DNA from: an uncultured Granulicatella sp.
GTDB lineage: Bacteria; Bacillota; Bacilli; Lactobacillales; Aerococcaceae
Length of the DNA stretch: 21,441 nt
Assembly (NCBI GenBank): GCA_934193545.1
Contig: CAKPVL010000023.1
Coordinates: 1 to 21,441, forward strand
Direction of reading: 5' to 3'
Below the pieces are notes generated by a model. It was not told the DNA's origin. It was given only the letters and a program-made list of their open reading frames with translations, and did no database searches. The translations under genes were made by a program, and so were the position numbers. This document shows, piece by piece, positions 753 to 17,696 of the stretch (position 1 is its first letter; every line of letters starts with the position of its first letter).

Positions 753-1001
753 GGAGGCTTTTAGGTGTATCCCTGTTTCATCAATTGCGACAGAAACAGC
801 GGTTTTGTTGAAAGATTAGTGAGAACATCCATTGAATGCGAATTAGAGACACTTACGAATCCATTCGTTAGTGTCTCTTTGAGGCTTCAAAGACGAGAGA
901 CCCTAGGCTCGAGTCGGTGGCTCACTAATTCTCTTTCAACAATTAAAACCGCTTGTTTCTAAAGCAATCCACGACCACACTCCATACACCTAAAAGCCTC
1001 C
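753..1001 (+). repeat. Palindromic structured element E1, 249 bp with 18-bp inverted ends
   Basis: The 516-base stretch 607-1122 has no credible gene. It holds this element. Its ends are a perfect 18-bp inverted repeat, GGAGGCTTTTAGGTGTAT (753-770) against 984-1001. Further inward, 792-798 pairs with 954-960, GCGGTTTT (799-806) with 945-952, GTTGAAAGA (807-815) with 932-940, and TTAGTGAG (816-823) with 921-928. Inside lie two hairpins. The first is a 15-pair stem, 845-859 with 864-878, with a 4-base loop and one T-T mismatch. The second is GAC-GAG(892-897)/CTC-GA-GTC(908-915) around the loop AGACCCTAGG. Both recur in E3 and the second also in E2. No transposase and no clear target duplication is seen. 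Confidence 0.85.
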
Positions 1002-1055
1002 CCCGAAGGGGCCTCCCTGCACCTACCCACTTTACAGCACATACTTTCTTTCCAC

Positions 1056-1086
1056 ACAAAAAGCCTGAGGAAAATTCCCCAGGCCT
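1056..1086 (-). terminator. Rho-independent terminator of the ugp-type operon
   Basis: On the minus strand a GC-rich stem (AAGGCCTGGGGAA pairing with TTCCTCAGGCTT, one mismatch) is followed by a run of T. It begins about 40 bases after the ugpB stop. Confidence 0.85.
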
Positions 1087-1122
1087 TCGTTGTGATTGTG
1101 TTGTGAATGAACTTATATGTGA

Positions 1123-2418
1123 TTATTGATTCCACGCTGCATCAAATTGTGCTTTAGAATCTGTAACTAATTGATCTACATTAGCATTTTCAGTCTTGAA
1201 GATTTTTTCTAAAATCGTACGAACTTCTGCGTATGCAGGGTCAGAGTTTTCAACTACAGGAATTGAGAATAAATTCTTAGTAGCTTCGCCTAAAATTGCA
1301 GGAACTTTAGAGTTTGATTTCTTGTATTCATCTTTTTCTAACACTGAAGCAACTGTTGGCATGTAACCAGTTTGTTGTGCCCAGTATAATTGAGATTCAG
1401 CTGAAGATAAGAATTTCAAGTATAAGAATGCTGCAGTACGTTGTTCTTCAGTTGTAGAACCTTCGAACATGTAAATGTCAGTACCTTGTTGTAAGTTGAA
1501 TTTCTCAGGACGAACTGCTACTCCGTATTCGAAACCAGCTTCTTTAGCGCCTTTAGCTACGAATGATTCACCAGCTGTTGAACCAACATACATAGCCACT
1601 TTTTTGTTTTGGAATGGTGCTGATAAGTATTTATCTGAACCAGCTACACGGAAGTATCCATCTTTAATTCCGTCTGCGTAGTATTTAACAACTTCTTTTG
1701 AAGCGTCACTTGCGAAGTCTAATTCTTTAGTGAAGTCAATGCCTTTGTTCTTCATACCAATTGCATAGTAGTTGTTTAATGAGTCGAAACCAGCACCAAC
1801 AACTTCGTGGTTAGATTTTTCGTAAATTGTTTTAGCTGCTTCTTTTAATTCATCTAAAGTAGTTGGAACTTTAACACCGTATTGTTTCAATAAATCTGCA
1901 TTGTAGAATAATACTTCTGTAGATTTGTTGAATGGGATACCGTATTGTACTCCTTTGATTTTAGCACCATCCATTAAGTCTGAACGGATTTCTTCACCTT
2001 TCTTGAATCCGATTGTTTCGTTTTCAATGTATGGTTTGAAGTCTACCAATGTATCTTGCTCAGCAGCATTGAATAACCAGTTAGGATATGCTTGAGTGAT
2101 TGTTGGTAAGTCTTTTGGTGAAGTTAAAGTTGAGTTAATTTTAGCTTGTAAATCTTTGTATGAAGATTGGTTTTGTAACTCTACTTTGATATTTGGGTTA
2201 GCTTTCATGAAGTCTTCTGTTAATTTTTGAAGAGCTTTTTCAAGCTGACCGTTCATAGCATGCCAGAAAGTGATTGTAGTTTCTGATTTAACCTCTGTTA
2301 CGATGTCTTTTTTAGTTTCAGCTTGTTGTGAGCTGTTTGATGAGTTAGCTCCACATGCTGTTAACGCTACAACTGATGCTGTTGCTAGTGTCGCTTTTAC
2401 TAAAGATTTGAATTTCAT
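1123..2418 (-). CDS. ugpB: Extracellular solute-binding lipoprotein, UgpB type
   Basis: This 431-residue protein starts with a lysine-rich lipoprotein signal peptide and a lipobox LTAC (19-22), so C22 would be lipidated and the protein anchored outside the membrane. The mature N-terminus ITFWHAMNGQLEKAL and the rest of the protein fit family 1 (MalE/UgpB) binding proteins, closest in style to the glycerol-3-phosphate group. It delivers solute to the UgpA/UgpE permease encoded just upstream. It is the last gene of the operon, 27 bases after the metallo-hydrolase, with its own strong AAAGGAGAAG site, and is followed by a terminator. The substrate is inferred from the family. A multiple-sugar or oligosaccharide ligand is a real alternative. 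Confidence 0.85.
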   Translation of the reverse strand: MKFKSLVKATLATASVVALTACGANSSNSSQQAETKKDIVTEVKSETTITFWHAMNGQLEKALQKLTEDFMKANPNIKVELQNQSSYKDLQAKINSTLTSPKDLPTITQAYPNWLFNAAEQDTLVDFKPYIENETIGFKKGEEIRSDLMDGAKIKGVQYGIPFNKSTEVLFYNADLLKQYGVKVPTTLDELKEAAKTIYEKSNHEVVGAGFDSLNNYYAIGMKNKGIDFTKELDFASDASKEVVKYYADGIKDGYFRVAGSDKYLSAPFQNKKVAMYVGSTAGESFVAKGAKEAGFEYGVAVRPEKFNLQQGTDIYMFEGSTTEEQRTAAFLYLKFLSSAESQLYWAQQTGYMPTVASVLEKDEYKKSNSKVPAILGEATKNLFSIPVVENSDPAYAEVRTILEKIFKTENANVDQLVTDSKAQFDAAWNQ

Positions 2419-2445
2419 TTTTCTTCTCCTTTTGTTATATAGTTT

Positions 2446-3738
2446 TTACAACACAATTTTTTCGCCGCGATACGGCAATATTCTGTCACCATACGGATTC
2501 ACCAGAAGTTCTGGTTTTAACGTATGAATTGGAACCAAACATTTAGGCTCGATCATCGCAATAATGCGGTCTAAGTCGTCCGGTTTTGCGTGACCTGAGC
2601 AAGCTAGGCGTACAAACTCAATGTGTTTTTCCGCCAATAAATCAAGAAACGGTTGATAGTTCGGATCAAAGTCCCCAAGAGGCTGCGCATCGCTATGGAT
2701 GTATAAGCTTCCTTCTTGCAAACGTTCGAAATGATCGACTGCTTGCCATAAGTACTTCGAAGTATCCTCTAACAACGTTTGATATGAAATTTCTAAAGTA
2801 GGATCAAGTTCGTCGAGCTTAGGAGCTCCTTCTCTATAGTAGTAATGAGCTTCTTTTTGGAAAACTTCTTTGAGAAGTGCCGCCATCGTTGCTTCTAAAA
2901 CAACAGTACGGCTTGTTCCTTCGACGATTTTTTCAAAACGACGGACATTTGCAGGATAGCCATTAAATGTGATTTGTCGATTTGGATTTTCTTGTTCGAG
3001 GCGAGCGATATGACGGATCACATCTTCCTCATTTTCAGGTTTAATTTCGTCTTCAACCTCTTTACGGTCTCCAAAGCTAATCGATACGCCTTCCATCATT
3101 AAAAGGTCGGTATGTTTTGCCTTCTTACAAAACTCGATTGTATCTTCGGCATTATGACCGTGAAGTCGTAAGTCCCCTGTATAAGTAATATGATGTCCAG
3201 GAGTTTTGATGATTAAAGCAGCAGCCCCATACGCATCATGATCGACACGCACGATTTCTACTTCGATTTCTCCAACCTTAATCACGTCTCCAGCATCTAA
3301 CCCAATCATGTCTCTTGTAAATGTATCGTCTTCAAACGGCGATGGTAGTAAGAACACGCCATTGCGGTTGAGCGAATTTACAATCATTTTTGTTTCCTTC
3401 AATGTATATAAAGGAATGTTTGGGTCTAAATAATTCAACATTCTTGTATGGTCCAAATGCGCATGAGAGATAAAGACCGCCGTGTTGGCATAGTCTTTAT
3501 CTTCATCCCCTTCATATTTGTAAGGGATACGTGCATCGTACATATTTTTCAAATGTGGAATCACTTTATGGTCAGTGAGTGTTTGCACCGATTCATCGGG
3601 CAGTTCTAATTCTGGTAAAAACTCAGTCCCGAAGTCAAAGAAGATATGACTATCTTTGTACGCTACTTCGATGACCGTTCCACCGATTGTCAAAATGCCG
3701 CTATGAAAGGTAATCGTTGTTTTATCCTTTGATACCAT
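2446..3738 (-). CDS. Metallo-beta-lactamase-fold hydrolase, beta-CASP/RNase J-like
   Basis: This 430-residue cytoplasmic protein has the metal motif HAHLDH (92-97), a further ligand H in VDHDAYG (about 167) and D in YTGDLRLHG (about 189). Near the C-terminus, SGHAKPDDLDRII (about 381-393) and VPIHT (about 402-406) match motifs B and C of the beta-CASP nucleases such as RNase J. It is about 120 residues shorter than RNase J. It is expected to hydrolyse a phosphodiester with two zinc ions, but the substrate is unknown. I chose the ATG at 3738, preceded by AGAGGGG. A TTG at 3747 abuts that site. The gene overlaps the end of ugpE by 17 bases, so it is translationally coupled to the transporter. 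That suggests it acts on the imported solute, in the position where E. coli has ugpQ. Confidence 0.8.
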   Translation of the reverse strand: MVSKDKTTITFHSGILTIGGTVIEVAYKDSHIFFDFGTEFLPELELPDESVQTLTDHKVIPHLKNMYDARIPYKYEGDEDKDYANTAVFISHAHLDHTRMLNYLDPNIPLYTLKETKMIVNSLNRNGVFLLPSPFEDDTFTRDMIGLDAGDVIKVGEIEVEIVRVDHDAYGAAALIIKTPGHHITYTGDLRLHGHNAEDTIEFCKKAKHTDLLMMEGVSISFGDRKEVEDEIKPENEEDVIRHIARLEQENPNRQITFNGYPANVRRFEKIVEGTSRTVVLEATMAALLKEVFQKEAHYYYREGAPKLDELDPTLEISYQTLLEDTSKYLWQAVDHFERLQEGSLYIHSDAQPLGDFDPNYQPFLDLLAEKHIEFVRLACSGHAKPDDLDRIIAMIEPKCLVPIHTLKPELLVNPYGDRILPYRGEKIVL

Positions 3739-4540
3739 TCTTCGCAACCCCTCTAATAATTTCTTTTCTGAATACGAAGTAAATTAACAGAATTGGGATA
3801 ACCGTTAAAGTTGCTGCGGCCATTTGTAAGTGAACATCACTTCCGGCTTCTGTCGTGAAGGCAGAAAGTCCGTTGTTTAATAGACGGAATTCTTTCGTGT
3901 TTGTAACCAATAATGGCCATAGGAATGAATTCCAGCTTTGGATGAATGTTAAAATCCCTACTGTTACTAACGCTGGTTTACACATTGGCACTAAAATACG
4001 CCAGATGTATTCTAAATCGCTCGCACCGTCGATTTTAGCCGCTTTGTAGAATGTGCTTGGGATTCCTTTTAAGTATCCGTTCAAGTAGTAAATATAGAAG
4101 ATACTTGTTAAGAACGGAATGATTAACGCTACATAAGTGTTTAATAACCCTAATTGAGCGATTGTTTGGTAGTTTGTAAAGATGATTGATTCGTAAGGAA
4201 CCATTAATAGTGAAACTAAAATCATCATTACGATATTTTTTCCTTTGAACTGTAAGCTTGTTACGGCAAAGGCTGCTAGTAATGAAGTAATCACTGTTGC
4301 CACTGTTGTAAATAGAGACACGAATAATGTGTTTCCGAAGTAACGTAAGAATGGCGCACGGCTAAATACTTCTAAGTAGTTACTAAATTTGAATGAACTT
4401 GGGATGAATGACGGTGGAATACTTGTTGCTTCCGCGTATGTCATTAACCCAGTCATTACCATGTAAATAAATGGGAATACAGTAATCAACGCTAAGAAAA
4501 TTAAAAGCGCGATTGAAAAACCGTTAAATACTTTTTTCAT
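3722..4540 (-). CDS. ugpE: ABC importer permease, UgpE/MalG type
   Basis: This 272-residue inner-membrane protein has about six membrane segments. The permease EAA loop, YKAAKIDGASDLEYIWRIL (about 165-183), is the site that docks on the ATPase. An aromatic-rich WNSFLWPLL segment after it is typical of carbohydrate-uptake CUT1 MalG/UgpE permeases. Length is normal for the family. It follows ugpA after four bases and overlaps the metallo-hydrolase gene at its 3' end. Assignment to glycerol-3-phosphate rather than sugar transport rests on the neighbours and is less sure than the permease call. Confidence 0.85.
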   Translation of the reverse strand: MKKVFNGFSIALLIFLALITVFPFIYMVMTGLMTYAEATSIPPSFIPSSFKFSNYLEVFSRAPFLRYFGNTLFVSLFTTVATVITSLLAAFAVTSLQFKGKNIVMMILVSLLMVPYESIIFTNYQTIAQLGLLNTYVALIIPFLTSIFYIYYLNGYLKGIPSTFYKAAKIDGASDLEYIWRILVPMCKPALVTVGILTFIQSWNSFLWPLLVTNTKEFRLLNNGLSAFTTEAGSDVHLQMAAATLTVIPILLIYFVFRKEIIRGVAKNGIKG

Positions 4541-4544
4541 CTTC

Positions 4545-5420
4545 TTATCCCTCCGCCTTTCTCAAGAATTTGTTTTGGAGGAATGTTGCAAAAAGAATGA
4601 TTGCAAACAAGATTACAGTTGCTGCCATGGCAACCCCTGGTCTTCCTGCCACATGGAACTTGTCGTAAATATAGTACACAGCTGTTGTTGCTGAGTTCGC
4701 TGGACCAGCAGTTCCGCCAAATAATGCGTACACTTGTGTATACACTTTGAATGCCCCGATTAAGTTAACCGTTGAAAGGAAGGCAATTGTTGGAACTAAT
4801 TGCGGGAATGTAATACGCCAGAAGATTTCACGGTCTGTCGCACCAAACATTTTCGCAATCTTGAAGTGCTCAGGATCAATATTACGTAATCCTGCTAAAA
4901 GGATAATAATATTGAACGCTAAACTTGTCCAAACCCCGAAGATAATCAGTGTTGGCATACTCATGTTTACGTTATCCAACCAGTTCACGGCTGGAATACC
5001 AATCAAGCCAAGGAAGAAGTTGATAATTCCGTAGTCCCCGTTAAAGAAGTAACGGAACACAATCCCGATAGCGATTGTACTTGTAACGTAAGGCATGAAG
5101 AAGATTGTTTCGAAGAAGCTTTTACGTTTAATCTTCTCGAAAATAATCCATGCAATGATGATTGAGATTAATAACGCTACTGGCACTACTGCGAATGCAT
5201 ACAATGCTGTGTTAAGTAACGCTTTATGGAATACAGGGTCTGCAATTACTTTTTGGTAGTTGTCTAAACCAGTGTATTGTAATTTTAATAGTGACCCTTT
5301 TTGGAAACTCATCCAGAACGAACGAAGTAATGGATAAATGTTAAAGAGAAGAATCACTCCTAAAGATGGGAGAAGGAATAACCAAGCTTTAGGTTGGTTC
5401 TCTGGGTTATATTTTCTCAT
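4545..5420 (-). CDS. ugpA: ABC importer permease, UgpA/MalF type
   Basis: This 291-residue permease has six predicted membrane segments. The N-terminal segment is WLFLLPSLGVILLFNIYPLL, and the EAA loop FKIAKMFGATDREIFWRIT lies at about 186-204. It lacks the extra periplasmic domain of enteric MalF, as is usual for the UgpA/MsmF group. It would form the heterodimeric channel with UgpE. Its ATG shares one base with the ugpC stop (TAATG), so the two are translationally coupled. Confidence 0.85.
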   Translation of the reverse strand: MRKYNPENQPKAWLFLLPSLGVILLFNIYPLLRSFWMSFQKGSLLKLQYTGLDNYQKVIADPVFHKALLNTALYAFAVVPVALLISIIIAWIIFEKIKRKSFFETIFFMPYVTSTIAIGIVFRYFFNGDYGIINFFLGLIGIPAVNWLDNVNMSMPTLIIFGVWTSLAFNIIILLAGLRNIDPEHFKIAKMFGATDREIFWRITFPQLVPTIAFLSTVNLIGAFKVYTQVYALFGGTAGPANSATTAVYYIYDKFHVAGRPGVAMAATVILFAIILFATFLQNKFLRKAEG

Positions 5421-6499: not shown

Positions 6500-6536
6500 G
6501 ACGAATCCTCCAGTTTCTTTTACTTCAATACATTCT

Positions 6537-6565: not shown

Positions 6566-6623
6566 CTGAAAAAGTAAAATTTATGAAAGCTTTTTATTGT
6601 AGACAGTTATCCCGTTTCTGAGC

Positions 6624-6735: not shown

Positions 6736-8697
6736 TTAACGTTTAATAATTTTATAGTAACTACGAGACGTGATTTGGTACACGATGAGATACACCACAA
6801 CAAAGATAGCACCAATCACAATCGTTGCGTTCAGCGTTACGTTGCCGTCAACCCCGAAGAGCTGAATAATCTTACGATACATCTTGAAGGCAAATGCGGT
6901 ATGAATAAACGCCGTCACAAGCGGTAAGAAGAATACGATTAGCACTTGACGGTTGATGGATTTCTTGATGGTCTTTTGATCGATACCAAGTTTTTGTAGG
7001 ATGACGAAACGGTCACGGTCTTCGTACCCTTCAGAAATTTGTTTGTAGTAAATGACAAGGACTGCACCAATGAAGAACGCAACGGAAAGAAGTGCCCCTA
7101 CAAAGAGTAAACTACCCATAAATCCGTAGATGTCTTTGGCCGCATCCTCTCTACTTCCAACCGTGATGAATTCCTCATTACTTCCTTCAAGCACGTTAGC
7201 GTAGGCTTCAAACTCTTCTGTTTTAGCTGAAGTGTCTGTCGATGTATCCCACAATGCATAGTAGAACCCACGGCCAAGTTTACCGTCAATCATCTTCGTT
7301 GGATCCTTTACAACGGCTACATAAACATTATCTGCAACATATGGCAATTGTGGCAATTTTTCTTTAAAGTCGCCAGTATCCATCATCTCTTTGACTTGAA
7401 GCGTTAATTGTCCATTCACGCGGATAGCCGAAACATTTTTGTCTGCTCCTTTAACCAGTCCTAGAACGACTTCATTATCACCAGGCTGAAAATTCGTCCC
7501 AAAAATACGATTGTAATCATCCGCAGAGAGGAACGTAATGAACGCGGCTGGGCTATCTCCTGGATAGACTCCCTCGATGTCCACCCCGCCCTCCATACTT
7601 TTTGCGGCACGAAGCACGCTGAGGTAATTCATTTCATTGGTTACAGTGCCCTTCGATTGCGCCTTGATTTTACTAATTTGTTCTGAAAGTTGGCGAATCG
7701 TAGAGGTGTCTTCGACGAATGCCGTTGCCGAATAATCTGTTGGATAGCTTTTCTTCAATAAATCGGCTGTCCCTGTTTGCAAAGCGACCGTTGTGGCTAA
7801 TGTGACAAGTACCATCGTCGATAAAATACAAATACTTGCAAGGCCCGCCGCATTTTTACGCATACGGAATTTTAAATTAGAAATCGAAATAAAATTCGTT
7901 GGTTGGTAAAAGAGACGTTTGTTCTTTTGTAAAAGCGAAAGCAATGCAATCGAACCTGCGTCAAATAAAATATACGTTGCTAAAACAACTAATAGAACCG
8001 CTACGAAGAAAGAATATAGCGCTGCAACAGGTGCTTCAATCGTTTGCGACATATAATACGCGCCGCCGAGAAGCCCTGCACCAATGAGTGCGCGAAGAAG
8101 GATAAAGCGCCCCTTCGTTTCTCCTTTTTTCTTCTCAGAAAGCATTTCTAACGGACGGCTCATATACATCTTTGTCGCATTTAAGAAGAAGACAGCCCCG
8201 AAAATAAACGCCATCGAAATCAGTACAAAACCGACGCTACCGAGTTGCATCGAATACTCGATGCCGATTGGAATTCGAATGAGTTTCAATAAAACGGCAA
8301 ACGAGAAGCGATGGAACACGATTCCAAGCACAATCCCTAGCCCCACGCTGACCACTGAGAAAAGAAGTAATTCAATGAAACTTAACAACTGAATGTTTTT
8401 TCGGTCGAGCCCTAAGATACTATATAGGCCGTATTCTTTTAATCGATTTTTCGTCACGAAGGCATTCGCGTAAAGAATCGTTAAGAGTGCCACGAGCTGA
8501 ACCACGATAACCCCAAAGCCCAATGTTTGCGCAATGGCTCCCCCTCCACGAAGAGTGGAAAGCTCCGGCATCGCAGATAAGGCGTGCGTGATATAGAGAA
8601 TCATCGTCACCATAATGGTCGTCAGTGCATACGGCAAATATAATGAATGATTCTTTTTTAGATTCGACGTCGCCATCGAAAAAATGAGTTTAAACAT
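6736..8697 (-). CDS. BceB-type ABC permease, FtsX family (copy 1)
   Basis: This 653-residue membrane protein has an N-terminal TM, an FtsX-type membrane block, then a large extracellular domain of roughly 230 residues (about 300-530), then the last FtsX block. That is the layout of BceB/VraG permeases, which are about 650 residues long. These exporters release undecaprenyl-cycle targets from antimicrobial peptides such as bacitracin or nisin and can signal to a histidine kinase. The C-terminal 100 residues are almost identical to the second copy at 9625-11595, while the extracellular domain is strongly diverged, so ligand range probably differs. The start is the ATG at 8697, behind AGAGGTG. 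It overlaps the ATPase stop by 8 bases (ATGTTTAA). The GTG at 8706 lies inside the ribosome site. Confidence 0.85.
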   Translation of the reverse strand: MFKLIFSMATSNLKKNHSLYLPYALTTIMVTMILYITHALSAMPELSTLRGGGAIAQTLGFGVIVVQLVALLTILYANAFVTKNRLKEYGLYSILGLDRKNIQLLSFIELLLFSVVSVGLGIVLGIVFHRFSFAVLLKLIRIPIGIEYSMQLGSVGFVLISMAFIFGAVFFLNATKMYMSRPLEMLSEKKKGETKGRFILLRALIGAGLLGGAYYMSQTIEAPVAALYSFFVAVLLVVLATYILFDAGSIALLSLLQKNKRLFYQPTNFISISNLKFRMRKNAAGLASICILSTMVLVTLATTVALQTGTADLLKKSYPTDYSATAFVEDTSTIRQLSEQISKIKAQSKGTVTNEMNYLSVLRAAKSMEGGVDIEGVYPGDSPAAFITFLSADDYNRIFGTNFQPGDNEVVLGLVKGADKNVSAIRVNGQLTLQVKEMMDTGDFKEKLPQLPYVADNVYVAVVKDPTKMIDGKLGRGFYYALWDTSTDTSAKTEEFEAYANVLEGSNEEFITVGSREDAAKDIYGFMGSLLFVGALLSVAFFIGAVLVIYYKQISEGYEDRDRFVILQKLGIDQKTIKKSINRQVLIVFFLPLVTAFIHTAFAFKMYRKIIQLFGVDGNVTLNATIVIGAIFVVVYLIVYQITSRSYYKIIKR

Positions 8698-9457
8698 GGA
8701 TTTCACCTCTATTTGCCATCGCAGTTAATGTTTCTGAGATCAACTCGAACATTTGTTGATCACTTCTTCCTTCACGGTACAATTGATTATAAATCAAGCC
8801 GTCTTTAATGAAAAGAACGCGTTTGGCACGACTGGCAGCGACCGTACTGTGCGTTACCATTAAAATCGTTTGTCCGTTTTGATTAATTTTATCAAATAAA
8901 TCTAATGTATTGCTTGCTGATTTTGAGTCAAGCGCCCCTGTTGGTTCATCGGCTAAGAGGAGGCTTGGGTCCGTAATCATCGCACGGCCAATCGCCACAC
9001 GTTGTTGTTGCCCTCCTGAGAGTTCATAAGGATATTTCTTCAGTAAGTCTTTAATCCCTAGCATTTGCGCAATCGGTTCGACCTTTTGCTTCATTTCTGA
9101 AATAGGACGGCGAGCGAGTACCAGCGGCAACACCATATTATCATAGACCGATAAGGTTTCTAATAAGTTGAAATCTTGGAACACGAACCCTAAGTGGTCG
9201 CGACGGAATTCCGTAAGAACTTTAGAAGAGATATTTTGAATGTTTTCTCCGTTTAAAAATACGGAACCAGCAGTTGGACGGTCGAGAGTCGCTAAAATAT
9301 TTAAGAGCGTTGTTTTCCCTGAACCCGATTCCCCCATCACGGCTACATATTCGCCTTCTTCAACCGAGAAGCTGATGTCTTTAAGAGCCGTCACCTCAGC
9401 AGCTCCAAAACGCGTTTGATATTTCTTTTGTAAATGTTGTACATCTAATAATGTCAT
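8690..9457 (-). CDS. BceA-type ABC ATPase (copy 1)
   Basis: This 255-residue ATPase has Walker [10 protein letters not shown] (42-50), signature LSGGQQQ (near 146), Walker B LLLADEP (near 166-172) and the switch histidine in VTHSTV (near 202). It belongs to the MacB/LolD/BceA group that powers FtsX-type permeases. The start is the ATG at 9457 behind AAAGGG. A GTG nine bases upstream lies in the ribosome site and is unlikely. It differs from copy 2 at 17 positions by my count, 15 of them in the first 145 residues, leaving the C-terminal part almost unchanged. It is coupled to its permease by the 8-base overlap. Confidence 0.87.
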
Positions 9458-9490
9458 TGTTTTCACCCTTTACTTTCATTTGTTGACCTT

Positions 9491-9611: not shown

Positions 9612-9624
9612 GAGTTGGAATTGA

Positions 9625-11595
9625 TTAACGTTTAATAATTCTGTAGTAACTACGAGACGTGATTTGGTACACGATGAGATATACGACCACGAAAATCGCA
9701 CCAATCACAATTGTCGCGTTTAATGTCACGCTGCCGTCAACCCCGAAGAGTTCGATAATCTTACGATACATCTTGAAGGCAAATGCGGTATGGATAAACG
9801 CTGTGACAAGTGGTAAGAAGAATACAATCAATACTTGACGGTTGATTGATTTCTTGATCGTCTTTTGATCGATACCGAGTTTTTGTAAGATAACGAAACG
9901 ATCACGGTCTTCGTATCCTTCAGAAATTTGTTTATAGTAAATAACAAGAACTGCACCGATGAAGAATGCGATAGAAAGAAGTGCACCCACTAAGAGCAAG
10001 CTACCCATGAAGGCATAGAGCGTTTTAGCCTCTTCATTCTTACTGCTTAACGCCATGGCATCTGCCTTGTATTGACTCTTCACATTCTTATACGCAGCCC
10101 ATTCAGCGTCACGTAACTCAAACGGTGTATTGGTATTCCAAGTAAAGTAATACATCGCTTGACCAGCCACTGGGTTTAAGTATTGCATTGGATCTTTTAC
10201 AATCCCTACATACTGATTATCTGCCACATATGGTAGTTGTGGCATTACTTTCGCGTAAGGAGTCCCATCAATCATCTCTTTAACGGTAATCGTCGCGGTA
10301 TACACAACCGAATACGTCTTTACTTCTGAAATTTGTTTAACGTCCCCTTTAATGTGGCCGACAATCATTTCCTTTTCGCCAACTGTGTAGTTCGTCCCAA
10401 ACATCTTATTATATTGGTCCACTGAAACAAGGGTGAACATCGCTGCAGGACTATCTCCTGAGTTCACATTCGCAAAGTCGAATCCATTCTCCGTACGTTT
10501 CCCAAAACGAAGCACGTTTAAGAATGTCTTCTCGTCTTTCAACTGACCTTTCGTTTGTTCCTTAATCTTTTGAACGATTGGAGGATATTGATCCATATCC
10601 TTTTCTAAAACAAAGTAAGCAACTGCAGAGTAATCTGTTGGATAGTTGCTATCGAGTCTGGCTGTTGTCCCACGTTGAAGTGCTACAGTTGTCGCCATCG
10701 TAACAAGTACCATTGTTGAAAGGATACACACGCTGGCAAGTCCGGCAGCATTTTTACGCATACGGAATTGCAAGTTTGAAATCGAAATAAAGTTCGTTGG
10801 TTGATAGAACAACTTCTTATTCTTTTGCAAGATGGATAGAAGCGCAATCGAACCAGCGTCGAATAAAATGTAAGTCGAAATCACTACTAATAATACAGCT
10901 AAGAAGAAGTATAAGAGAGCTTTAACCGGAGACTCGATGGATTGTGACATATAGTACGCATATCCGAGAAGTCCTAGACCGATAATGGCACGAATTGTAA
11001 CGGCGCGGCCTTTCTTCTCCCCTTTTTTCTTCTCTTTTAATAACTCAAGCGGACGGCTCATGTAAATCTTCGCTGCATTTAAAAAGAACACAAGAACGAA
11101 GATGGCCACCATCGTTAATAGAACAGCAATAATACTTCCGAATTGGAAGGAATATTTAATACCGATATCGTATTGAATGAGTTTCAATAGAATCGCAAAG
11201 GATGCCGCATGGAAAATCACACCAAGGATTAACCCTAGACCAATGCTTAAAGCGGCAAAGACAACTAACTCAATCAAGCTGAGCAATTGGATATTCTTAC
11301 GGTCAAGACCGAGAATACCGTATAAACCGAACTCTTTGGCACGGTTTTTCATTACGAAGGCATTCGCATACAAAATAACGACGAGTGATACGATTTGAAC
11401 GATGACGAAACCAAAACCAAGAGTCTTGGCCATCGCTGACCCACCTTCAAGATGAGCAAACTCCGGTGTTGCAGCCAGTGCGTTCGTTACATATAGAACT
11501 ACTGTCACCATCACCGTTGCGAGTGCAAATGGTACATAGAGAGCACGGTTCTTACGTAAGTTCGTAATCGCCATGGAACGCAGTAGATTAAACAT
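9625..11595 (-). CDS. BceB-type ABC permease, FtsX family (copy 2)
   Basis: This 656-residue paralogue of the permease at 6736-8697 has the same order: N-terminal TM, FtsX block, extracellular domain of about 230 residues, FtsX block. The membrane parts match closely, and the last 98 or so residues differ from copy 1 at only about three positions. The extracellular domain is only loosely similar, keeping islands such as PTDYSA, SGDSPAA or PGDSPAA, FGTN and QLPYVADN. The start is the ATG at 11595, giving the same ATGTTTAA overlap with the ATPase as in copy 1. Function as an antimicrobial-peptide detoxification or sensing transporter is inferred from the family. Confidence 0.85.
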   Translation of the reverse strand: MFNLLRSMAITNLRKNRALYVPFALATVMVTVVLYVTNALAATPEFAHLEGGSAMAKTLGFGFVIVQIVSLVVILYANAFVMKNRAKEFGLYGILGLDRKNIQLLSLIELVVFAALSIGLGLILGVIFHAASFAILLKLIQYDIGIKYSFQFGSIIAVLLTMVAIFVLVFFLNAAKIYMSRPLELLKEKKKGEKKGRAVTIRAIIGLGLLGYAYYMSQSIESPVKALLYFFLAVLLVVISTYILFDAGSIALLSILQKNKKLFYQPTNFISISNLQFRMRKNAAGLASVCILSTMVLVTMATTVALQRGTTARLDSNYPTDYSAVAYFVLEKDMDQYPPIVQKIKEQTKGQLKDEKTFLNVLRFGKRTENGFDFANVNSGDSPAAMFTLVSVDQYNKMFGTNYTVGEKEMIVGHIKGDVKQISEVKTYSVVYTATITVKEMIDGTPYAKVMPQLPYVADNQYVGIVKDPMQYLNPVAGQAMYYFTWNTNTPFELRDAEWAAYKNVKSQYKADAMALSSKNEEAKTLYAFMGSLLLVGALLSIAFFIGAVLVIYYKQISEGYEDRDRFVILQKLGIDQKTIKKSINRQVLIVFFLPLVTAFIHTAFAFKMYRKIIELFGVDGSVTLNATIVIGAIFVVVYLIVYQITSRSYYRIIKR

Positions 11596-12355
11596 GTTCC
11601 TCACCTCTGTTTGCCATCGCAGTTAATGTTTCTGAGATTAATTCAAACATTTGTTGGTCCGTTCTTCCTTCACGGTACAATTGGTTGTAAATTAAACCGT
11701 CTTTAATGAAAAGAACGCGTTTGGCACGACTTGCGGCAACAGTACTGTGCGTTACCATTAAAATCGTTTGTCCATTTTGATTGATTTTATCGAATAAATC
11801 TAATGTATTGCTTGCTGATTTTGAATCCAATGCTCCTGTTGGTTCATCGGCTAATAGTAAGCTTGGGTCTGTAATCATCGCACGGCCGATTGCCACACGT
11901 TGTTGTTGACCTCCAGATAATTCATATGGATATTTCTTCAACAAGTCCTCAATGCCTAACATTTCAGCGATTGGTTGAACTTTCTTTTCCATTTCGTCGA
12001 TTGGACGACGTGCTAATACAAGTGGCAATACCATATTGTCATACACGGATAATGTTTCTAATAAGTTGAAGTCTTGGAAAACGAACCCTAAGTGGTCACG
12101 ACGGAATTCCGTTAATACTTTATCAGAAATCTTTTGAATGTCTTCCCCGTTTAGAAGCACAGTTCCATCTGTTGGACGGTCTAGTGTCGCTAAAATATTT
12201 AATAGCGTTGTTTTACCAGAACCAGATTCCCCCATGACTGCTACATATTCGCCTTCTTCTACTGAGAAGTTAATATCTTTTAACGCAGTCACTTCAGCGG
12301 CTCCAAAACGTGTTTGATAAACTTTTTGTACGTGTTGTACATCTAATAATGTCAT
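11588..12355 (-). CDS. BceA-type ABC ATPase (copy 2)
   Basis: This 255-residue ATPase has the same motif set as copy 1: Walker [10 protein letters not shown] (42-50), LSGGQQQ near 146, LLLADEP near 166, VTHSTV near 200. The start is the ATG at 12355 behind AAGGGTG. The GTG at 12364 is part of that ribosome site. It is about 93% identical to copy 1 by my hand count (17 differences). It is the first gene of its own transcription unit, divergent from the luxS operon. Confidence 0.87.
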   Translation of the reverse strand: MTLLDVQHVQKVYQTRFGAAEVTALKDINFSVEEGEYVAVMGESGSGKTTLLNILATLDRPTDGTVLLNGEDIQKISDKVLTEFRRDHLGFVFQDFNLLETLSVYDNMVLPLVLARRPIDEMEKKVQPIAEMLGIEDLLKKYPYELSGGQQQRVAIGRAMITDPSLLLADEPTGALDSKSASNTLDLFDKINQNGQTILMVTHSTVAASRAKRVLFIKDGLIYNQLYREGRTDQQMFELISETLTAMANRGEEHV

Positions 12356-12389
12356 TGTTGTCACCCTTCATTGTTTAATAGATAGTTCT

Positions 12390-12421
12390 ATTATACTGTA
12401 AAGAGTGAAACTTTTCACTCT
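12390..12421 (-). promoter_or_regulatory. Promoter of BceAB-type pair 2 with a 20-bp palindromic operator candidate
   Basis: The minus strand has a consensus -10 TATAAT (12390-12395) and a GTGAAA -35 (12413-12418, four of six) at 17 bases. A perfect 9-2-9 palindrome, AGAGTGAAA-CT-TTTCACTCT (12402-12421), covers the spacer and -35, where a repressor would block polymerase. No BceR-like site was found upstream of this pair. From 12422 to 12599 I see only AT-rich DNA and one weak 6-bp hairpin (12454-12473). Confidence 0.6.
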
Positions 12422-12599
12422 ATTCTATAATCTTTCCAATCTAGAGCATTTTTTGCGTAAATAACACTACGCACTGATCCTCCGGAAGTCAATTCAAGCA
12501 AAATACGAACAATTCATTGTTTTATATCTATTTTAGGTTATAAAAACCGTGAATAACGAACTATAAATAAAAATTATAACTAAAAGTATGTTTTTAAGA

Positions 12600-12628
12600 T
12601 TGACTTTTCACAAACTATCCAGTATCCT
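12600..12628 (+). promoter_or_regulatory. Promoter of the luxS-metQ-mtnN operon
   Basis: TTGACT (12600-12605) and TATCCT (12623-12628) are spaced exactly 17 bases apart. Transcription would start near 12635, about 50 bases before the T-box stem I. Confidence 0.7.
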
Positions 12629-12682
12629 ATCTATATAACATATTGAAACGCAATGAAAAGAAGAGTAAAAAATAAAACTTCA

Positions 12683-12894
12683 TAGAGAGCTTACGGTTGG
12701 TGCGAGTAAGCAAGTCGTTATTTTTGAACATGATCTTTGAGCAGATTGTCCGAACCCTTAAGACAATCCGGGTACTCCCGTTATCAACCATCCGTCTAGA
12801 CGGATAAGGTCTTCTCCCCCGAAGACGAACAAAGGTGGTACCACGACTGCAACTCGTCCTTTTAGCAAGCGCTAGAAGTGCGGGCTTTTTTATT
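12683..12894 (+). ncRNA. T-box leader, probable methionine specifier
   Basis: The leader has the expected parts in order. Stem I begins at AGAGAGC (about 12684) and contains GGTGCGAG. The specifier region reads GAAC-ATG-A, with ATG at 12730-12732, decoding methionine. A stem III hairpin, GTCTTC...GAAGAC, lies near 12810-12826. The T-box itself, AGGTGGTACCACG, lies at 12833-12845. A terminator follows. Uncharged tRNA-Met would stabilise the antiterminator and switch on luxS, metQ and mtnN. All three downstream genes concern methionine or its methyl cycle, which supports the specifier reading. Confidence 0.9.
12853..12894 (+). terminator. Regulated terminator of the T-box leader
   Basis: CTCGTCCTTTTAGC (12853-12866) pairs with 12871-12884 around AAGC, with one mismatch and several G-U pairs, then CTTTTTT. 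Its 5' arm contains the CCTTT segment that would instead pair with AAAGG of the T-box in the antiterminator. Confidence 0.85.
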
Positions 12895-12929
12895 TTCGTT
12901 TCATCAAAACAACTTAGGAGGAAATCAAC

Positions 12930-13403
12930 ATGGCTGAAGTAGAAAGCTTTACACTAGACCATAACAAGGTGATTGCACCTTACGTTCGCTTAATCGCTAA
13001 CGAACATGGTAAGAAAGGAGACGTCATTTCAAACTTTGACATCCGCTTCTTACAACCAAACAAACAAGAAATGCCAACAGGTGTCGTTCATACATTCGAA
13101 CACTTATTAGCGGACCTCTTACGTGACCGCTTAGAAGGCATCATCGACATCTCTCCATTTGGATGCCGTACTGGTTTCCACTTAATCCTTTGGGAAGAAC
13201 GTTCTCCTGAAGATATCGCACGCGCATTGAAATCAACGCTAGAAGAAATCGTAAATAACATTCAATTCAAAGATATTCAAGGCGTCTCTGCCGTACAATG
13301 CGGAAACTACCGCGACCATTCATTATTCGGTGCAAAAGAATACGCCAAACAAGTCTTAGAACAAGGTATCAGCATTGATCCATTCGTTCGCAAAGTTATT
13401 TAA
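12930..13403 (+). CDS. luxS: S-ribosylhomocysteine lyase (AI-2 synthase)
   Basis: This 157-residue protein splits S-ribosylhomocysteine to homocysteine and DPD, the precursor of autoinducer-2. The metal site HTFEH gives H54, E57 and H58. The catalytic cysteine is C79 in PFGCRTGF, and the third metal ligand is C124 in [11 protein letters not shown]. Length and motifs are complete, so it should be active. The ribosome site is TTAGGAGGAAATC before the ATG. It is the first gene behind a Met T-box, so AI-2 output should rise when charged tRNA-Met falls. It works directly after the nucleosidase encoded by the third gene of the operon. Confidence 0.97.
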
Positions 13404-13457
13404 TCAATTGTCATTCAGTAAGAAACAGTAGACACCTAGACTGGAGGAACCCCCTAT

Positions 13458-14342: not shown

Positions 14343-14345
14343 TCC

Positions 14346-15038
14346 ATGAAGATTGCAATTGTTGCAGCGATGAAAGAAGAGCTGCATCCATTCGAAGCCC
14401 ATTTCGCACCAGGAAAAGTGGTCTTTGCAAAAGGCCCAATCCGATTCCTAGAAGTCCACGAGAACTTGTATCTCGTACAATCAGGAATCGGTAAAGCCAA
14501 CGCTGCGGCTTGTGCGGCTTGGTTATGCGAGAAGATCCAACCCGACCTCATCATTAATACAGGAACAACGGGAAGCTTTAACCCAACGTTCGACTTAGCC
14601 GATGTCATCGTTTCTACGAAATTCGCCTATAGCGACGTGGATGCGACTGGATTCGACTACGCCTGGGGACAAGTGCCTCAGATGCCAGCGGACTACCCTG
14701 TAGATAAAGACTTACACGAAAAAGTGGTCGGACTGCTGCGCGAAAAGGTGAGCAGATTTAACATCCAAAGCGGCTTTATCGCAACAAGCGACTCGTTTAT
14801 GAGCTCTGTCGACGCCGTTAGTACGATTCGCGAAAAATTACCAGACATCGTCGCAAGCGATATGGAAGCAGCGCCCATTGCACAAGTGGCTAGCTTCTAT
14901 GACATCCCCGTGCTAAACGTACGTGGCGTGAGCGACCATGTCGGTGGAGATGCCCCTGATACTTTCGAGGAAACTCTCGAAAAAGCATCTCAAAACGCAT
15001 TCGAAGCAGTGCGTATTATTGTTGAAAATTTCCTATAA
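14346..15038 (+). CDS. mtnN: 5'-methylthioadenosine/S-adenosylhomocysteine nucleosidase
   Basis: This 230-residue cytoplasmic enzyme removes adenine from SAH and MTA. SAH then yields S-ribosylhomocysteine, the LuxS substrate. The catalytic residues of the E. coli enzyme are present at the same numbers: E12 (MKEEL), E174 (SDMEAA) and D197 (VRGVSDH). The SGIGKANAA and NTGTTGSF phosphate-binding segments are also present. The gene starts three bases after the metQ stop without a strong ribosome site, so translation is probably coupled. It is the last gene of the T-box operon and is followed by a terminator. Confidence 0.96.
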   Translation: MKIAIVAAMKEELHPFEAHFAPGKVVFAKGPIRFLEVHENLYLVQSGIGKANAAACAAWLCEKIQPDLIINTGTTGSFNPTFDLADVIVSTKFAYSDVDATGFDYAWGQVPQMPADYPVDKDLHEKVVGLLREKVSRFNIQSGFIATSDSFMSSVDAVSTIREKLPDIVASDMEAAPIAQVASFYDIPVLNVRGVSDHVGGDAPDTFEETLEKASQNAFEAVRIIVENFL

Positions 15039-15070
15039 ATCTCCCTAGATTTACCGCAAACGCTAAACGC

Positions 15071-15107
15071 AAAAAGGAGCGCAGGCTTACTCGCCTCGCT
15101 CCTTTTT
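15071..15107 (+). terminator. Terminator of the luxS operon, probably bidirectional
   Basis: AAAAAGGAGCG pairs with CGCTCCTTTTT, with an inner AGGC/GCCT extension. The A run before and T run after allow it to work in both directions, serving mtnN and the convergent ketopantoate-reductase gene. Confidence 0.85.
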
Positions 15108-15143
15108 ATGTGCCGTATCACCTAACTATTAGTTGATGCAAAA

Positions 15144-15245
15144 AAAGAATCAATCTATTGAAAGAATGGTGAGCTCCGAAGGCGAGAGACTTTATCCCTC
15201 GCCGGTGCCCCCACTATGACTCTTTCAATTTTAAACTGATTCTTT
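15144..15245 (+). repeat. Palindromic structured element E2, short form, 102 bp
   Basis: AAAGAATCA (15144-15152) pairs with 15237-15245 and ATTGAAAGA (15157-15165) with 15221-15229. A weaker GTG/CAC-type stem continues inward. The core hairpin is GGC-GAG (15181-15186) with CTC-GCC (15198-15203) around AGACTTTATCC, followed by CGGTG, as in E1. The second, long hairpin of E1 and E3 is absent. It lies between convergent genes and has no T run, so it is not a plain terminator. Confidence 0.7.
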
Positions 15246-15262
15246 AAATTGTTCTTTATTTA

Positions 15263-16189
15263 CTATTTAACCTTCAAAATATCTTCTTTCGCGTGGATAA
15301 GCTCTGTAATCAATTGACAATAAGGTGTTGGAATACCATATTTCTTCCCTTTTCTAGCCACAAAGCCGTTCAAGAAGTCCACTTCAGTAAAGCGGTGGTT
15401 TTGAATTAAATCTTGGTGCATTGAAGGATAGTGTCCACGAACTTTATTAGAAGCTGTATACACATAATCTTTCATTGCAGCTGGATCAAGATGCACGCCT
15501 TCTTTTTCAGCAACGGCAACGAATTCACTGATGATTTGCGTTACGATAGCTTCGGCAGTTGAAGTATCGAACACTTCGCCGATGTTTGCATCTAAAATCG
15601 CACATGTTGCGTTCATCGTACCGTTCACGCACGCCTTACGCCATGTTGAGAAATGAACGTCTTCGCTGTAGCTTGCGTTCAAGCCCGCTTTGTCCATCAC
15701 TTCTACTAATTCTTTAGCAATCGCTACACCACTTGGGTCCGCCGCTTGCATTTCTACCGTACCAGTTCCGCCTAGACGCGCTACCCCTGGTTCGATTAGA
15801 CCCGCAGTCCAAATCGTTACCCCCATAATAATATTTTTACGAGGAACGTATTTCGCCATTGTGTCTTCGTGTCCTAGACCATTTAAAAGACAAAGCACTT
15901 TTGTATCTTCGTGGATAATCGCTTTAATCTTTTCAAGCATTTCGCCTAATTTCATTGATTTTGTAAATGCGATGACCACATCTACTTCTTCCGTTGCTTC
16001 TTCCGGACGAATAATCTTGATATCAATCGTATCTGTGTTTTCTCCATCAACGACTTTCAATCCATTCTTTTGGATGGCTTCGATATGCGCTGGCCATTCG
16101 TCGATCAACGTCACCTCTTGCCCTGTTTTTGTTAACATGTACCCAAAACGGCACCCCATTGCTCCTGCACCCGCAATTGCGATTTTCAT
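15263..16189 (-). CDS. Ketopantoate reductase / D-2-hydroxyacid dehydrogenase family protein
   Basis: This 308-residue NAD(P)H enzyme of the ApbA/PanE family has the Rossmann motif GAGAMG (7-12). The catalytic lysine is in WRKACVNGTMNAT (K185), SMHQDL lies near 256, and the conserved acidic residue is in TEVDFLNG (E269). It would reduce 2-dehydropantoate to pantoate, or a related 2-keto acid. In Lactococcus an enzyme of this family works as a D-2-hydroxyacid dehydrogenase on branched-chain keto acids. No panB or panC is nearby, so I leave the symbol empty. It follows the EIIC-like gene after 18 bases with an AAGGGGAG site, so the two form an operon. Confidence 0.82.
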   Translation of the reverse strand: MKIAIAGAGAMGCRFGYMLTKTGQEVTLIDEWPAHIEAIQKNGLKVVDGENTDTIDIKIIRPEEATEEVDVVIAFTKSMKLGEMLEKIKAIIHEDTKVLCLLNGLGHEDTMAKYVPRKNIIMGVTIWTAGLIEPGVARLGGTGTVEMQAADPSGVAIAKELVEVMDKAGLNASYSEDVHFSTWRKACVNGTMNATCAILDANIGEVFDTSTAEAIVTQIISEFVAVAEKEGVHLDPAAMKDYVYTASNKVRGHYPSMHQDLIQNHRFTEVDFLNGFVARKGKKYGIPTPYCQLITELIHAKEDILKVK

Positions 16190-16207
16190 TTTAACTCCCC
16201 TTTTCTA

Positions 16208-17266
16208 TTAAACGGTTAATTTGTAATCTTCTGGTTGAATCCATTTTAACACTTTTTCGAATAAATGAACGAATACGATGTTTAACGCGATTGGCGCAAC
16301 GACGAAAATAAGCGTCACAATAACGATATTCATCACACTCCATCCGCCCTCTGCTAAGTTCAACGCATTGATTGGTCCTACTAATCCGCTGAAACCGAAC
16401 CCTGCACTTTGAGGTGTTCCTTGAATGTTAAATAAAGCTGCTAACACACCAAGTACGGCAGATGTACACATCATTGGTAATAAGATTTTTGGTTTTGCCA
16501 ACACATTCGCCATTGACATTTTTGGCGAACCGATGAAATGCGCAATTGCAGTTCCTTTTGGATTCACTTTCCATCCCGCAATCGCAAGGCCAAATCCAGC
16601 TGCACAGATTCCAAGGTTTGCTGCGCCTGAACCTACACCGCTAAGACTAATCGCCACGGCAATCCCTACTGTTGTAAACGGAGAAACGATTAACATACAG
16701 AAAATAACGGCTAATAATAAACACATAATAACTGGTTGTAATGATAATAGCGTTCCGATTCCTTGTCCTAATAATGTTGTTAATGTTTTGATATATGGCA
16801 ATGCAAGACGACCTAGTCCACCTACGACCACTAATAACACCGTTGGAATAACGATAATAGAGTATGCTTTTGCTTTATTGCCAATCCATAAAATAACAGC
16901 TGCTCCTAATGCTGCAGTAAGTCCCATCGTGATGATGTCCCCTGTACCGCTAAAGATAATTCCTTTTACATCAGGATTGAAAGTTGCTACACCGCCTGCA
17001 AATAACACGGCTAATGCAAGTGCTCCTGTTTGAATTGGAGTGAATTTGAAGAATTGGCCGACCATCAATCCGATGATTGCCCCCATTAATGTATTGGCCA
17101 CTTGTGTTGCTTGGATTATCAATTGGCCTTGTGGGAATACTGGTAATAACGCCTTCACTAATTCACCCAGTAATGCTCCAGGGATAAGTGTAACGACCAC
17201 GCCTAATGCAAGTGCGTTAAGGACGTTCATCGTGAACTCTTTCCCGCTGTATTTCTTTTGTTCCAT
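16208..17266 (-). CDS. PTS_EIIC-like (PfoR-type) membrane protein
   Basis: This 352-residue, very hydrophobic protein has about ten membrane segments and many glycines. The loop FTTVGIAVAISLSGVGSGAA and the motif GTAIAHFIGSPKMSM resemble the PTS_EIIC_2/PfoR family. No IIA, IIB or EI-binding domain accompanies it, so phosphotransferase transport is doubtful. It may be a plain transporter for the product or substrate of the adjacent dehydrogenase. I chose the ATG at 17266 (AAAGGTGG upstream). The open frame continues to 17401 but would read through the promoter and element E3. Confidence 0.75.
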   Translation of the reverse strand: MEQKKYSGKEFTMNVLNALALGVVVTLIPGALLGELVKALLPVFPQGQLIIQATQVANTLMGAIIGLMVGQFFKFTPIQTGALALAVLFAGGVATFNPDVKGIIFSGTGDIITMGLTAALGAAVILWIGNKAKAYSIIVIPTVLLVVVGGLGRLALPYIKTLTTLLGQGIGTLLSLQPVIMCLLLAVIFCMLIVSPFTTVGIAVAISLSGVGSGAANLGICAAGFGLAIAGWKVNPKGTAIAHFIGSPKMSMANVLAKPKILLPMMCTSAVLGVLAALFNIQGTPQSAGFGFSGLVGPINALNLAEGGWSVMNIVIVTLIFVVAPIALNIVFVHLFEKVLKWIQPEDYKLTV

Positions 17267-17282
17267 AATACTTCCACCTTTC

Positions 17283-17696
17283 ATAAGATTGGCTTTATTA
17301 TAGCATACCAACCAGCTAGTATTGTGATATTTTCTTGTAAAATCATATAAAAGACCGTAGGTCGTTATATTTTTTTCTGCAAAAATAAAGTTAGTATTCA
17401 TAAAAAAAGATTCGATTACTACGAATCATTACGGATGTTTCCATAATCGCTGTAGTGGGGTACCGGTTCGAGCCTAAGGTCTCTCACCTTCAAAGCTTCA
17501 AAAAGGGAGTAAGGAATAAATTCCTAACTCCCTTTAATTTATCTTTGATACTATCCCCCACCACTGCGATTATAGGATCCGTAAGATTCTTCGTAATCTC
17601 TGTTTATGAGACTTTTATTCGCAGAACGCCTACGGTCTTTTATCATTCAACTTAAAAATATCACTGTGCTGCGAAAGCTAGTAAAGCCAATCTTAT
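17283..17696 (-). repeat. Palindromic structured element E3, 414 bp
   Basis: The 622-base stretch 17267-17888 has no credible gene and is mostly this element. The ends are a perfect 15-bp inverted repeat, ATAAGATTGGCTTTA (17283-17297) against 17682-17696. Further in, ATAAAAGACCGTAGG (17347-17361) pairs perfectly with 17629-17643, and the arms stay imperfectly complementary to about 17460/17560. On the minus strand the centre holds a 15-pair hairpin (17521-17535 with 17502-17516, 4-base loop, one T-T mismatch). It also holds the core hairpin GGT-GAG/CTC-GA-ACC (17465-17488) around AGACCTTAGG, both as in E1. Confidence 0.85.
17297..17302 (-). promoter_or_regulatory. Extended -10 promoter of the EIIC-like gene
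   Basis: The minus strand reads TGCTATAAT (hexamer 17297-17302), about 30 bases before the ATG, with no good -35. It overlaps the left end of element E3, so the element contributes the promoter of this gene. Confidence 0.6.

Follow-up and report, generated by a model that had tools for sequence, protein, structure and literature searches.

Three folded elements in the window

The stretch of DNA analysed here (the window; 21,441 nt) carries three elements, E1, E2 and E3, whose parts are located in Table 1. The unit is ~185–195 nt long and its core is a three-way junction: P2 is interrupted by a conserved internal loop, in which GAATTA faces TTTGA, P3 bears the loop motif GAGACC..GGCTC, and an extra short helix (RCAT/GTGY), not among the stems listed in an earlier note on this DNA, connects P1 to the junction.

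Table 1. Positions of the three elements and their parts in the window (R1 and R2, covariance models).
Feature	Position	Strand	Details and basis
E1 unit	785..967	+	outer arms TTGCGACAGAAACAGCGG ... CCGCTTGTTTCTAAAGCAA flanking the core; bounds from extent of homology
E1 core (P1, P1b, P2, P3; three-way junction)	813..933	+	R1 126.0 bits; R2 113.4 bits
E1 P2 hairpin	845..878	+	15 positions, 4-base loop, T-T at pair 10
E1 P3 loop motif and CGGT	895..918	+	pattern match
E2, shortened E1-like copy without P1b and P2	15144..15245	+	alignment; P3 motif at 15184–15206
E3 unit	17414..17598	-	arms GATTAC ... GTAATC flanking the core; bounds from extent of homology
E3 core (P1, P1b, P2, P3; three-way junction)	17447..17567	-	R1 131.6 bits; R2 120.6 bits
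E3 P2 hairpin	17502..17535	-	15 positions, 4-base loop, T-T at pair 10
E3 P3 loop motif and CGGT	17462..17485	-	pattern match
Terminator-like hairpin then T run, 3′ end of E3	17409..17427	-	consensus scan only

The P3 hairpin with CGGT, which the earlier note had described as common to all three elements, was recovered at each of them by the pattern GAGAGACYYTAN{1,4}CTCGN{0,5}CGGT (3 matches in the window versus 0 in 100 dinucleotide shuffles). The second, 15-pair stem reported for E1 and E3 is also present; both have the T-T mismatch at pair 10, and pairs 2, 5, 6, 8 and 12 differ between the elements on both strands of the stem, and the weaker stem said to enclose it is a helix in an 11-copy alignment and again in a 99-copy alignment (helix 3). 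Over the extents originally proposed, folding z-scores were -12.3 (E1), -6.0 (E2) and -14.5 (E3). The core of E1 and E3 is as first described, but the boundaries are not: the shared unit is shorter (~785–967 and 17414–17598). Similarly, of the three-way junction on a long outer stem the junction holds, whereas the farther outer inverted repeats are absent from dispersed copies. Between such copies BLAST homology mostly stops within ~40 nt either side of the core, the exceptions being one pair that reaches 56 nt and pairs with an apparent 130-nt insert, which reach farther.

By alignment, E2, in which the P1b/P2 part is absent, is a member of an E1-like subgroup; neither covariance model (R1, R2) matched E2. 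Terminator-like sites in the region number two, against a shuffle mean of 0.2, by consensus scan only. A site in genome G001 that seemed to be empty of E1 proved on alignment to be a deletion between two AGCACATA repeats, which also takes the start of the adjacent gene.

Copies in other genomes and their covariation

A covariance model was built and related genomes were searched, as the earlier note had suggested, and further copies were found. Across seven genomes of the nearest genus the model returned 91, 86, 76, 11, 1, 0 and 0 copies; within the window's family 17 of 76 genomes have matches, as do, with a wider covariance model, 37 of 295 Lactobacillales genomes. (We take G001 and G390 to be Granulicatella, g5 to be Aerococcus and g4 to be Streptococcus.) The copies are mostly intergenic. 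Gene context was obtained for 74: 25 lie between convergent genes, 5 between divergent and 44 between tandem genes. In the last class 28 of the 44 are oriented against the genes, and a role inside mRNAs would therefore make most of them antisense. Genome G099 contains near-identical, recent copies.

Searches of plasmid and phage DNA had as outcomes no match, a 25-base match in one phage, Aerococcus tenax, and Enterococcus relics. Several sets of pattern matches were set aside: those on viral contigs (27 stretches) are, by eye, nearly all instances of a single, apparently coding stretch with nothing but the short pattern in common with the elements; of 41 in genome contigs, most occur singly in other phyla and, on the same inspection, resemble chance hits; and three in Lachnospiraceae LC2019 (L019, L022, L052) have a surrounding of their own in common. 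Three loci of Lacticaseibacillus songhuajiangensis (L024, L035, L049; R2 17.3–20 bits) have P3 alongside other hairpins and are possible distant relatives.

The covariation seen in the window persists with more sequences. Among 99 distinct copies 94.8% of 3474 cells are paired, versus 25.7–43.3% when the alignment is slid, and there are 886 double-change cells against a shuffled mean of 248. In a further alignment (A3; 31 copies, mostly from another genus) 89.6% are paired versus 26.4–43.0% slid; here, of five measures, that of further pair types was reached in 18 of 500 shuffles. Compensatory changes exceed both shuffles and slides, as is required of a conserved structured RNA.

Thirty-four ortholog pairs link two species, and hence many sites are common to both. 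All 34 together contain 165 compensatory changes; because some pairs look mispaired among neighbouring copies, 13 with less than 0.80 identity were left out, and the 21 kept (755 base pairs) show 26 compensatory changes versus 16 single changes that gain or lose a pair. Between the two species, resident copies have changed at 3 of 263 conserved unpaired positions, versus 1283 of 9232 in the flanks (22 ortholog pairs, one at about 0.80 identity), so the copies look selected in place, with the proviso that the ortholog pairs were chosen for identity and that core-less copies escape the model. Variable unpaired bases changed at 50 of 409 positions, much like the flanks. The covariation in 99 and 31 copies, combined with the ortholog pairs, strongly supports the earlier claim of selection on a folded nucleic acid. 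As to which nucleic acid, G-U pairs are scarce (80 of 4484 standard pairs, versus 11 of 109 in five tRNAs) and A-C mismatches number 45, versus none in the same tRNAs: both are unusual for an RNA.

Transposon-borne relatives and known families

In G099 the core lies within an ISL3-family insertion sequence, between the transposase gene (PF01610) and the right end, and all five elements checked there have perfect 8-bp target duplications (this check supersedes an end search of four distinct G099 copies, in which the left end fell beyond the stretch). R2 places the core behind the G099 transposase gene in four of the five (L197, L198, L199 and L203), and in L214 it was recognised by eye. Of 13 copies in genomes of other families within the order (f2, f3 and f6), 4 combine ISL3-type ends with exact 8-bp repeats (control 0 of 13), and some short core-bearing derivatives are also ISL3-ended with 8-bp target duplications. 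A different transposon, in G123, holds the core between an istB-like gene and its right end, with GATGAAAT on both sides; its putative assignment to the IS21 type comes from reading the ORFs.

The earlier proposal of a non-autonomous mobile element is supported indirectly by these relatives, which resemble ISL3-family MITEs in several genera, and not by ends on the window copies. Among 99 copies, nearly all of the window type (mainly from G001, G053, G390 and the window, with three from L. songhuajiangensis), ISL3-like terminal repeats with an 8-bp repeat were found in none (control 1), and for the window type mobilisation is therefore argued by analogy. The same search found no ends with 8-bp repeats on 26 copies from G182, G077 and G092. 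By eye, however, traces of ISL3-like ends can be made out in copies from these three genomes. A further difference from ISL3-family MITEs is that the interior forms a conserved fold, which another transposon family also carries. The bridge RNA of IS110 is likewise a non-coding part borne by an insertion sequence, in the partial account drawn on here; the module described above differs in that two unrelated transposon families, as well as transposase-less elements, contain it.

No Rfam 15 family reached its gathering score on any window element. Weak matches were taken as chance: SQ1002_RNA on E3 (27.2 of 128 bits, E 0.027, the best weak match there), MIR5638 on E1 (E 0.066), IS605-orfB-I over E3 (E 1.5), and mir-787 (E 0.0017), ar35 and others on other loci. 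Rfam SSRC8_2 (threshold 72 bits) did not match the window at gathering or at E up to 10. The earlier note's statement that it recognised no published family stands for the window type, but the P3 loop of that type ties it to SSRC8_2 (RF02616, Streptococcus sRNA 8). SSRC8_2 has the P3 loop GAGACCTTAGGCTC with a covarying stem, P2 and P1 around the junction, and a dispersed distribution: 8 of 13 g4 genomes contain 30–45 matches, and in the genus nearest to the window one genome has 44 and another 23. Unlike the window type, it has four hairpins, in a four-way junction with an added P4, and its model scores only 0–2 places in G001, G053, G014 and G182. One loop and a similar layout suggest a distant link. 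SSRC8 is a streptococcal sRNA with a Northern signal and mapped ends in the accessible portion of PMC3675131; the blots, made on this putative relative, lend the non-coding RNA half of the original proposal indirect support.

Pneumococcal BOX, RUP and SPRITE are also short intergenic interspersed repeats with strong predicted RNA folds, and are thought to be non-autonomous mobile elements. Compared by description only, BOX differs in being modular (A, B, C), and no relation of the three to ISL3 or IS21 is seen in the portions of PMC3049150 drawn on here, where BOX modules are reported to alter downstream gene expression. On the Rfam searches above, the window type appears to be a new structured interspersed repeat family.

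Proposed spread and retention of the family

Together these analyses make it probable that the three window elements are copies, scattered through the genome, of a MITE-like structured element: a mobile family, with transposon-borne relatives, that is constrained in place. It is unlikely that the family is an ordinary MITE, whose fold is carried by a transposase in trans without other function and whose resident copies are decaying relics. That account accommodates the 8-bp repeats and ISL3-type ends of some lineages, forms with a deletion such as E2, and the recent copies in G099; it sits poorly with orthologous copies whose conserved unpaired bases barely change (3/263) while variable ones behave like flanks (50/409), with the many sites common to two species (34 ortholog pairs) and with window-type copies that have no ends. 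An element at transcript 3′ ends, stopping, processing or protecting the RNAs of adjacent genes (a role discussed for other interspersed repeats), would explain the excess of copies between convergent genes (25 of 74) over those between divergent genes (5), and the terminator-like site at the end of E3 and the effect of BOX modules on downstream expression (in the part of PMC3049150 drawn on) are in keeping with it. The 28 of 44 tandem-gene copies that run against the genes, a consensus that by eye has no T tract after the unit, and the variety of neighbours make it improbable.

More weight, even if we are doubtful of it, attaches to an element acting as DNA: a single-stranded hairpin or cruciform recognised by a transposase or by a nucleoid or repair protein of the host, with arm-to-arm copying perhaps helping to maintain pairing. 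Very low G-U, visible A-C, the double versus single changes in ortholog pairs (26+2 versus 34) and the lack of a fixed orientation relative to genes all speak for it. However, G-U still exceeds A-C (80 versus 45), which means that one strand is favoured; bulges and internal loops are kept, though arm copying would erase them; and the relative SSRC8 is transcribed, according to the accessible portion of PMC3675131.

If the family is indeed mobile and constrained in place, ISL3-family and istB-bearing transposons would have carried it for at least part of its spread, and the window's relatives, having no recognisable transposon ends, would sit mostly at old, shared sites. The element would act as a folded nucleic acid read via its conserved loops, most likely as RNA once transcribed, and resident copies may be kept because the fold is still of use to the host or to the element itself. 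That the function lies at the RNA level alone is possible, although we would not assume it. We also propose, tentatively, that a module of at least two unrelated transposon families (ISL3; istB-bearing, IS21-like) has turned into a genome-wide functional element: ~90 copies per genome in some genera, without ends, each held by selection on fold and loops, beside a sister family in streptococci that has until now been known as one sRNA (SSRC8).

The window type is abundant in the genomes that carry it yet is matched by no Rfam family, and we found no report of it in the open-access literature that was searched. One conserved fold is connected to unrelated transposons; the data suggest that SSRC8, described as one sRNA, is part of a high-copy repeat; and since resident copies show signs of selection, the retention by bacteria of dozens of transposon-related folds becomes a testable question.

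The folded core and its covariation

The three intergenic elements of the window (E1, E2 and E3) share a hairpin, P3, as had been claimed: the pattern GAGAGACYYTAN{1,4}CTCGN{0,5}CGGT matches at these three places in the window and in 0 of 100 shuffles, and folding z scores against each element's own shuffles are -12.3 (E1), -6.0 (E2) and -14.5 (E3). The second stem of E1 and E3 is exactly as the earlier note described it, with T-T at pair 10 in both and pairs 2, 5, 6, 8 and 12 altered on both sides. When aligned, E2 groups with E1-like copies, without the P1b/P2 part. No Rfam family threshold was met on E1, E2 or E3, in agreement with the failure to recognise a published family; weak overlaps at E up to 10 (SQ1002, E 0.027; MIR5638, E 0.066; IS605-orfB-I, E 1.5) were taken as chance.

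The core is a three-way junction comprising P1, P1b (in which RCAT pairs with GTGY), P2, whose internal loop has GAATTA facing TTTGA, and P3 with the loop GAGACC..GGCTC, followed by CGGT. Median pairwise identity among 95 full-length copies is 60%. Three copies (L003, L009 and L011) bear an extra insert of ~130 nt in the P2 internal loop, made of two hairpins (GTTGAATAGG ... CCATTCAACCACTGTG); E3, at the site orthologous to insert-bearing copies, is without it.

In alignments fitted to the model structure, and thus biased in its favour, standard pairs fill 94.8% of 3474 cells in 99 distinct copies (from the window and genomes G001, G053 and G390; 25.7-43.3% with slid partners), and 89.6% in 31 copies with other stem sequences, about 25 of them from G182, a genome of another genus (slid, 26.4-43.0%). 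The larger set has both-side changes at 31 of 36 pairs, and none of five measures was reached in 500 shuffles; in the smaller set four were never reached and further pair types were reached by 18 of 500. A1, a first alignment made without the model structure, still has both-side changes at 23 of 36 pairs. The covariation first noticed in the window therefore persists with more sequences.

Coordinates of features in the window and in related records
Feature	Record	Position	Strand	Remark
E1 core	window	813-933	+	
E3 core	window	17447-17567	-	
ABC permease + ATP-binding ORF pair	window	6736-9466	-	
ABC permease + ATP-binding ORF pair	window	9625-12364	-	adjacent to and highly similar to the preceding pair
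T-box leader	window	12644-12864	+	132 bits; ORF at 12930 downstream
Gene with window-type copy upstream	window	16208-17266		orthologue in G001 and G053 likewise
E1 site	L119 (G053)	3650-5000		two tandem copies
Skipping-rope RNA (Rfam)	L244 (G001)	10790-10868		65 bits
Degenerate relative	L286 (E. faecium plasmid)	3501-3699		ISL3-like right end

Spread, placement and a sister family

The strict pattern finds 7 copies in G001, the genome nearest to the window, and has matches in 4 of 395 Lactobacillales genomes, its reversed control having 0 in every genome listed. A covariance model of the core built from 11 copies (R1, counted at E up to 0.01) gives 91 copies in G001, 86 in G053, 76 in G014, 11 in G390, 1 in G346 and 0 in G161 and G131, among at most 150 candidates scored per genome. 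Across the bacterial family R1 has matches in 17 of 76 genomes and 5 of 21 genera (at most 47 candidates scored per genome); across the order a wider model, R2, built from 85 rows, has matches in 37 of 295 genomes and 18 of 75 genera, its per-genome counts being lower bounds from at most 12 candidates scored. Aerococcus tenax CP127381 is a named carrier (93.5 bits). Related genomes thus hold further copies, as expected, and the identity of the family as real, large, mobile structured elements is well supported; as far as our searches of the open-access literature go, it is undescribed.

Gene neighbourhoods were read for 74 copies, 72 from G053 and 2 from the window. Forty-four lie between tandem genes (28 oriented against them, 16 along them), 25 between convergent and 5 between divergent genes; 11 of the 74 overlap an ORF of at least 80 codons, ORFs being chosen by a crude rule. 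In most comparisons of dispersed copies BLAST homology gives out no farther than ~40 nt from each edge of the core; one pair extends to 56 nt at the 5' end, and three others run to 114-162 nt, these involving copies that, judged by layout, seem to bear the ~130-nt insert. Eleven copy pairs in G053 are spaced by ~450 nt or less. At the E1 site the window has one copy and G001 a deletion. Orthologues of the gene preceded by a window-type copy (Table) have upstream, in L174 (G346) and L175 (G131), a short hairpin element resembling a truncated SSRC8-type copy. The two ABC ORF pairs of the window are apparently a tandem duplication.

R2 was also run on 11 genomes in which window-type copies are scarce or lacking, and 10 of them gave weak matches. 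Several of these (in G131, G346 and genomes of g4, a genus of the order) share P1, P2 and P3, the P3 loop included, and add a further hairpin, P4, as in Rfam SSRC8_2 (RF02616, streptococcal sRNA 8). On eight such loci SSRC8_2 gave six matches in five, at 34.9-59.6 bits, under the threshold of 72. Among 20 genomes 16 were matched, 7 above threshold, against 0 of 14 controls, with at most 55 candidates scored per genome and many matches partial. On that basis G346 has 44 matches, G131 23, G053 2 and G014 1, and the 13 g4 genomes have 30-45 in eight, 3-6 in four and 0 in one; searches of G001, G161 and G182 gave 0. By these counts SSRC8_2 stands for a repeat of high copy number, and in the genomes searched this repeat and the window type tend to take each other's place. 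What would link the two is the common P3 loop and layout.

Transposons carrying the core

Genome G099 has an ISL3-family insertion sequence, 1780-1781 bp long (PF01610), whose non-coding 3' tail contains near-identical copies of the core. All five of the elements checked have identical flanking 8-mers (TTAAAACG, CGGATTTT, TTTAAAAT, CTTATTTA and CTTTTTTA); R2 detects the core in four of them, and in the fifth (L214) it was found by eye. In other families of the order, ISL3-type ends with exact 8-bp repeats accompany 4 of 13 copies (L184, L187, L188 and L189; control 0 of 13). Genome G123 has an element with matching ends and GATGAAAT on both sides, in which a closely similar core occupies the interval from an istB-like gene to the right end; from a reading of its ORF this is a candidate IS21-type transposon. 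L206 is a short version that has ends of this kind and an 8-bp repeat. One core thus occupies the same place and orientation in two apparently unrelated transposons. Ends with 8-bp repeats were found in none of 99 copies, mainly of window type (control 1).

In L150 (G338) an IS3-type orfB-like ORF is followed after 57 nt by a core. The 3' tail of another ISL3-family element (L223, L230, L222 and L231, from G131 and G346) forms a three-way junction of its own and bears no obvious similarity in sequence to the core. The degenerate relative on the E. faecium plasmid is also present in 67 other Enterococcus plasmid records; in three records examined it is flanked by a helix-turn-helix gene and lnu(B), and R2 matched neither of two records searched.

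Probable selection on resident copies and the nature of the fold

Of 75 elements tested (74 core matches and E2), 50 have flanks that both map to a single place in the examined G001 stretches, and for 34 copies the two flanks identify a partner copy in G001. The 755 base pairs of the 21 pairs with at least 0.80 identity include 26 compensatory changes and 18 single changes via G-U, with 16 pairs gained or lost and 2 non-pairing double changes. Among 22 ortholog pairs identity is 92.8% in the core (2450/2640), 90.7% in the adjacent 40 nt on each side and 86.1% in the farther flanks. Differing sites number 3/263 at conserved unpaired positions (12 columns), 105/1583 at paired and 50/409 at variable unpaired positions, and 1283/9232 in the flanks; two biases toward constraint enter here, pairs having been picked by identity and core-less copies escaping detection, and in our judgement they do not account for the twelve-fold gap between conserved unpaired bases and flanks.

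Whether the fold is one of RNA or DNA can be weighed from its pairs. With two fixed-wobble positions set aside, 80 of the 4484 standard pairs are G-U, compared with 11 of 109 in a small control of five tRNAs from the same stretches; A-C mismatches number 45 in the copies and 0 in the tRNAs. Both features are odd for an RNA, as far as so small a control goes, and make a DNA fold possible. G-U is nevertheless commoner than A-C (80 versus 45; the copies being mutually related, the p value of this difference is not strict). PMC3675131 reports a Northern signal and mapped ends for SSRC8 in S. pyogenes, and this relative speaks for the RNA reading.

The boldest reading remaining is that a transposon passenger may have turned into a genome-wide functional element, which we put forward tentatively, as possible rather than probable.
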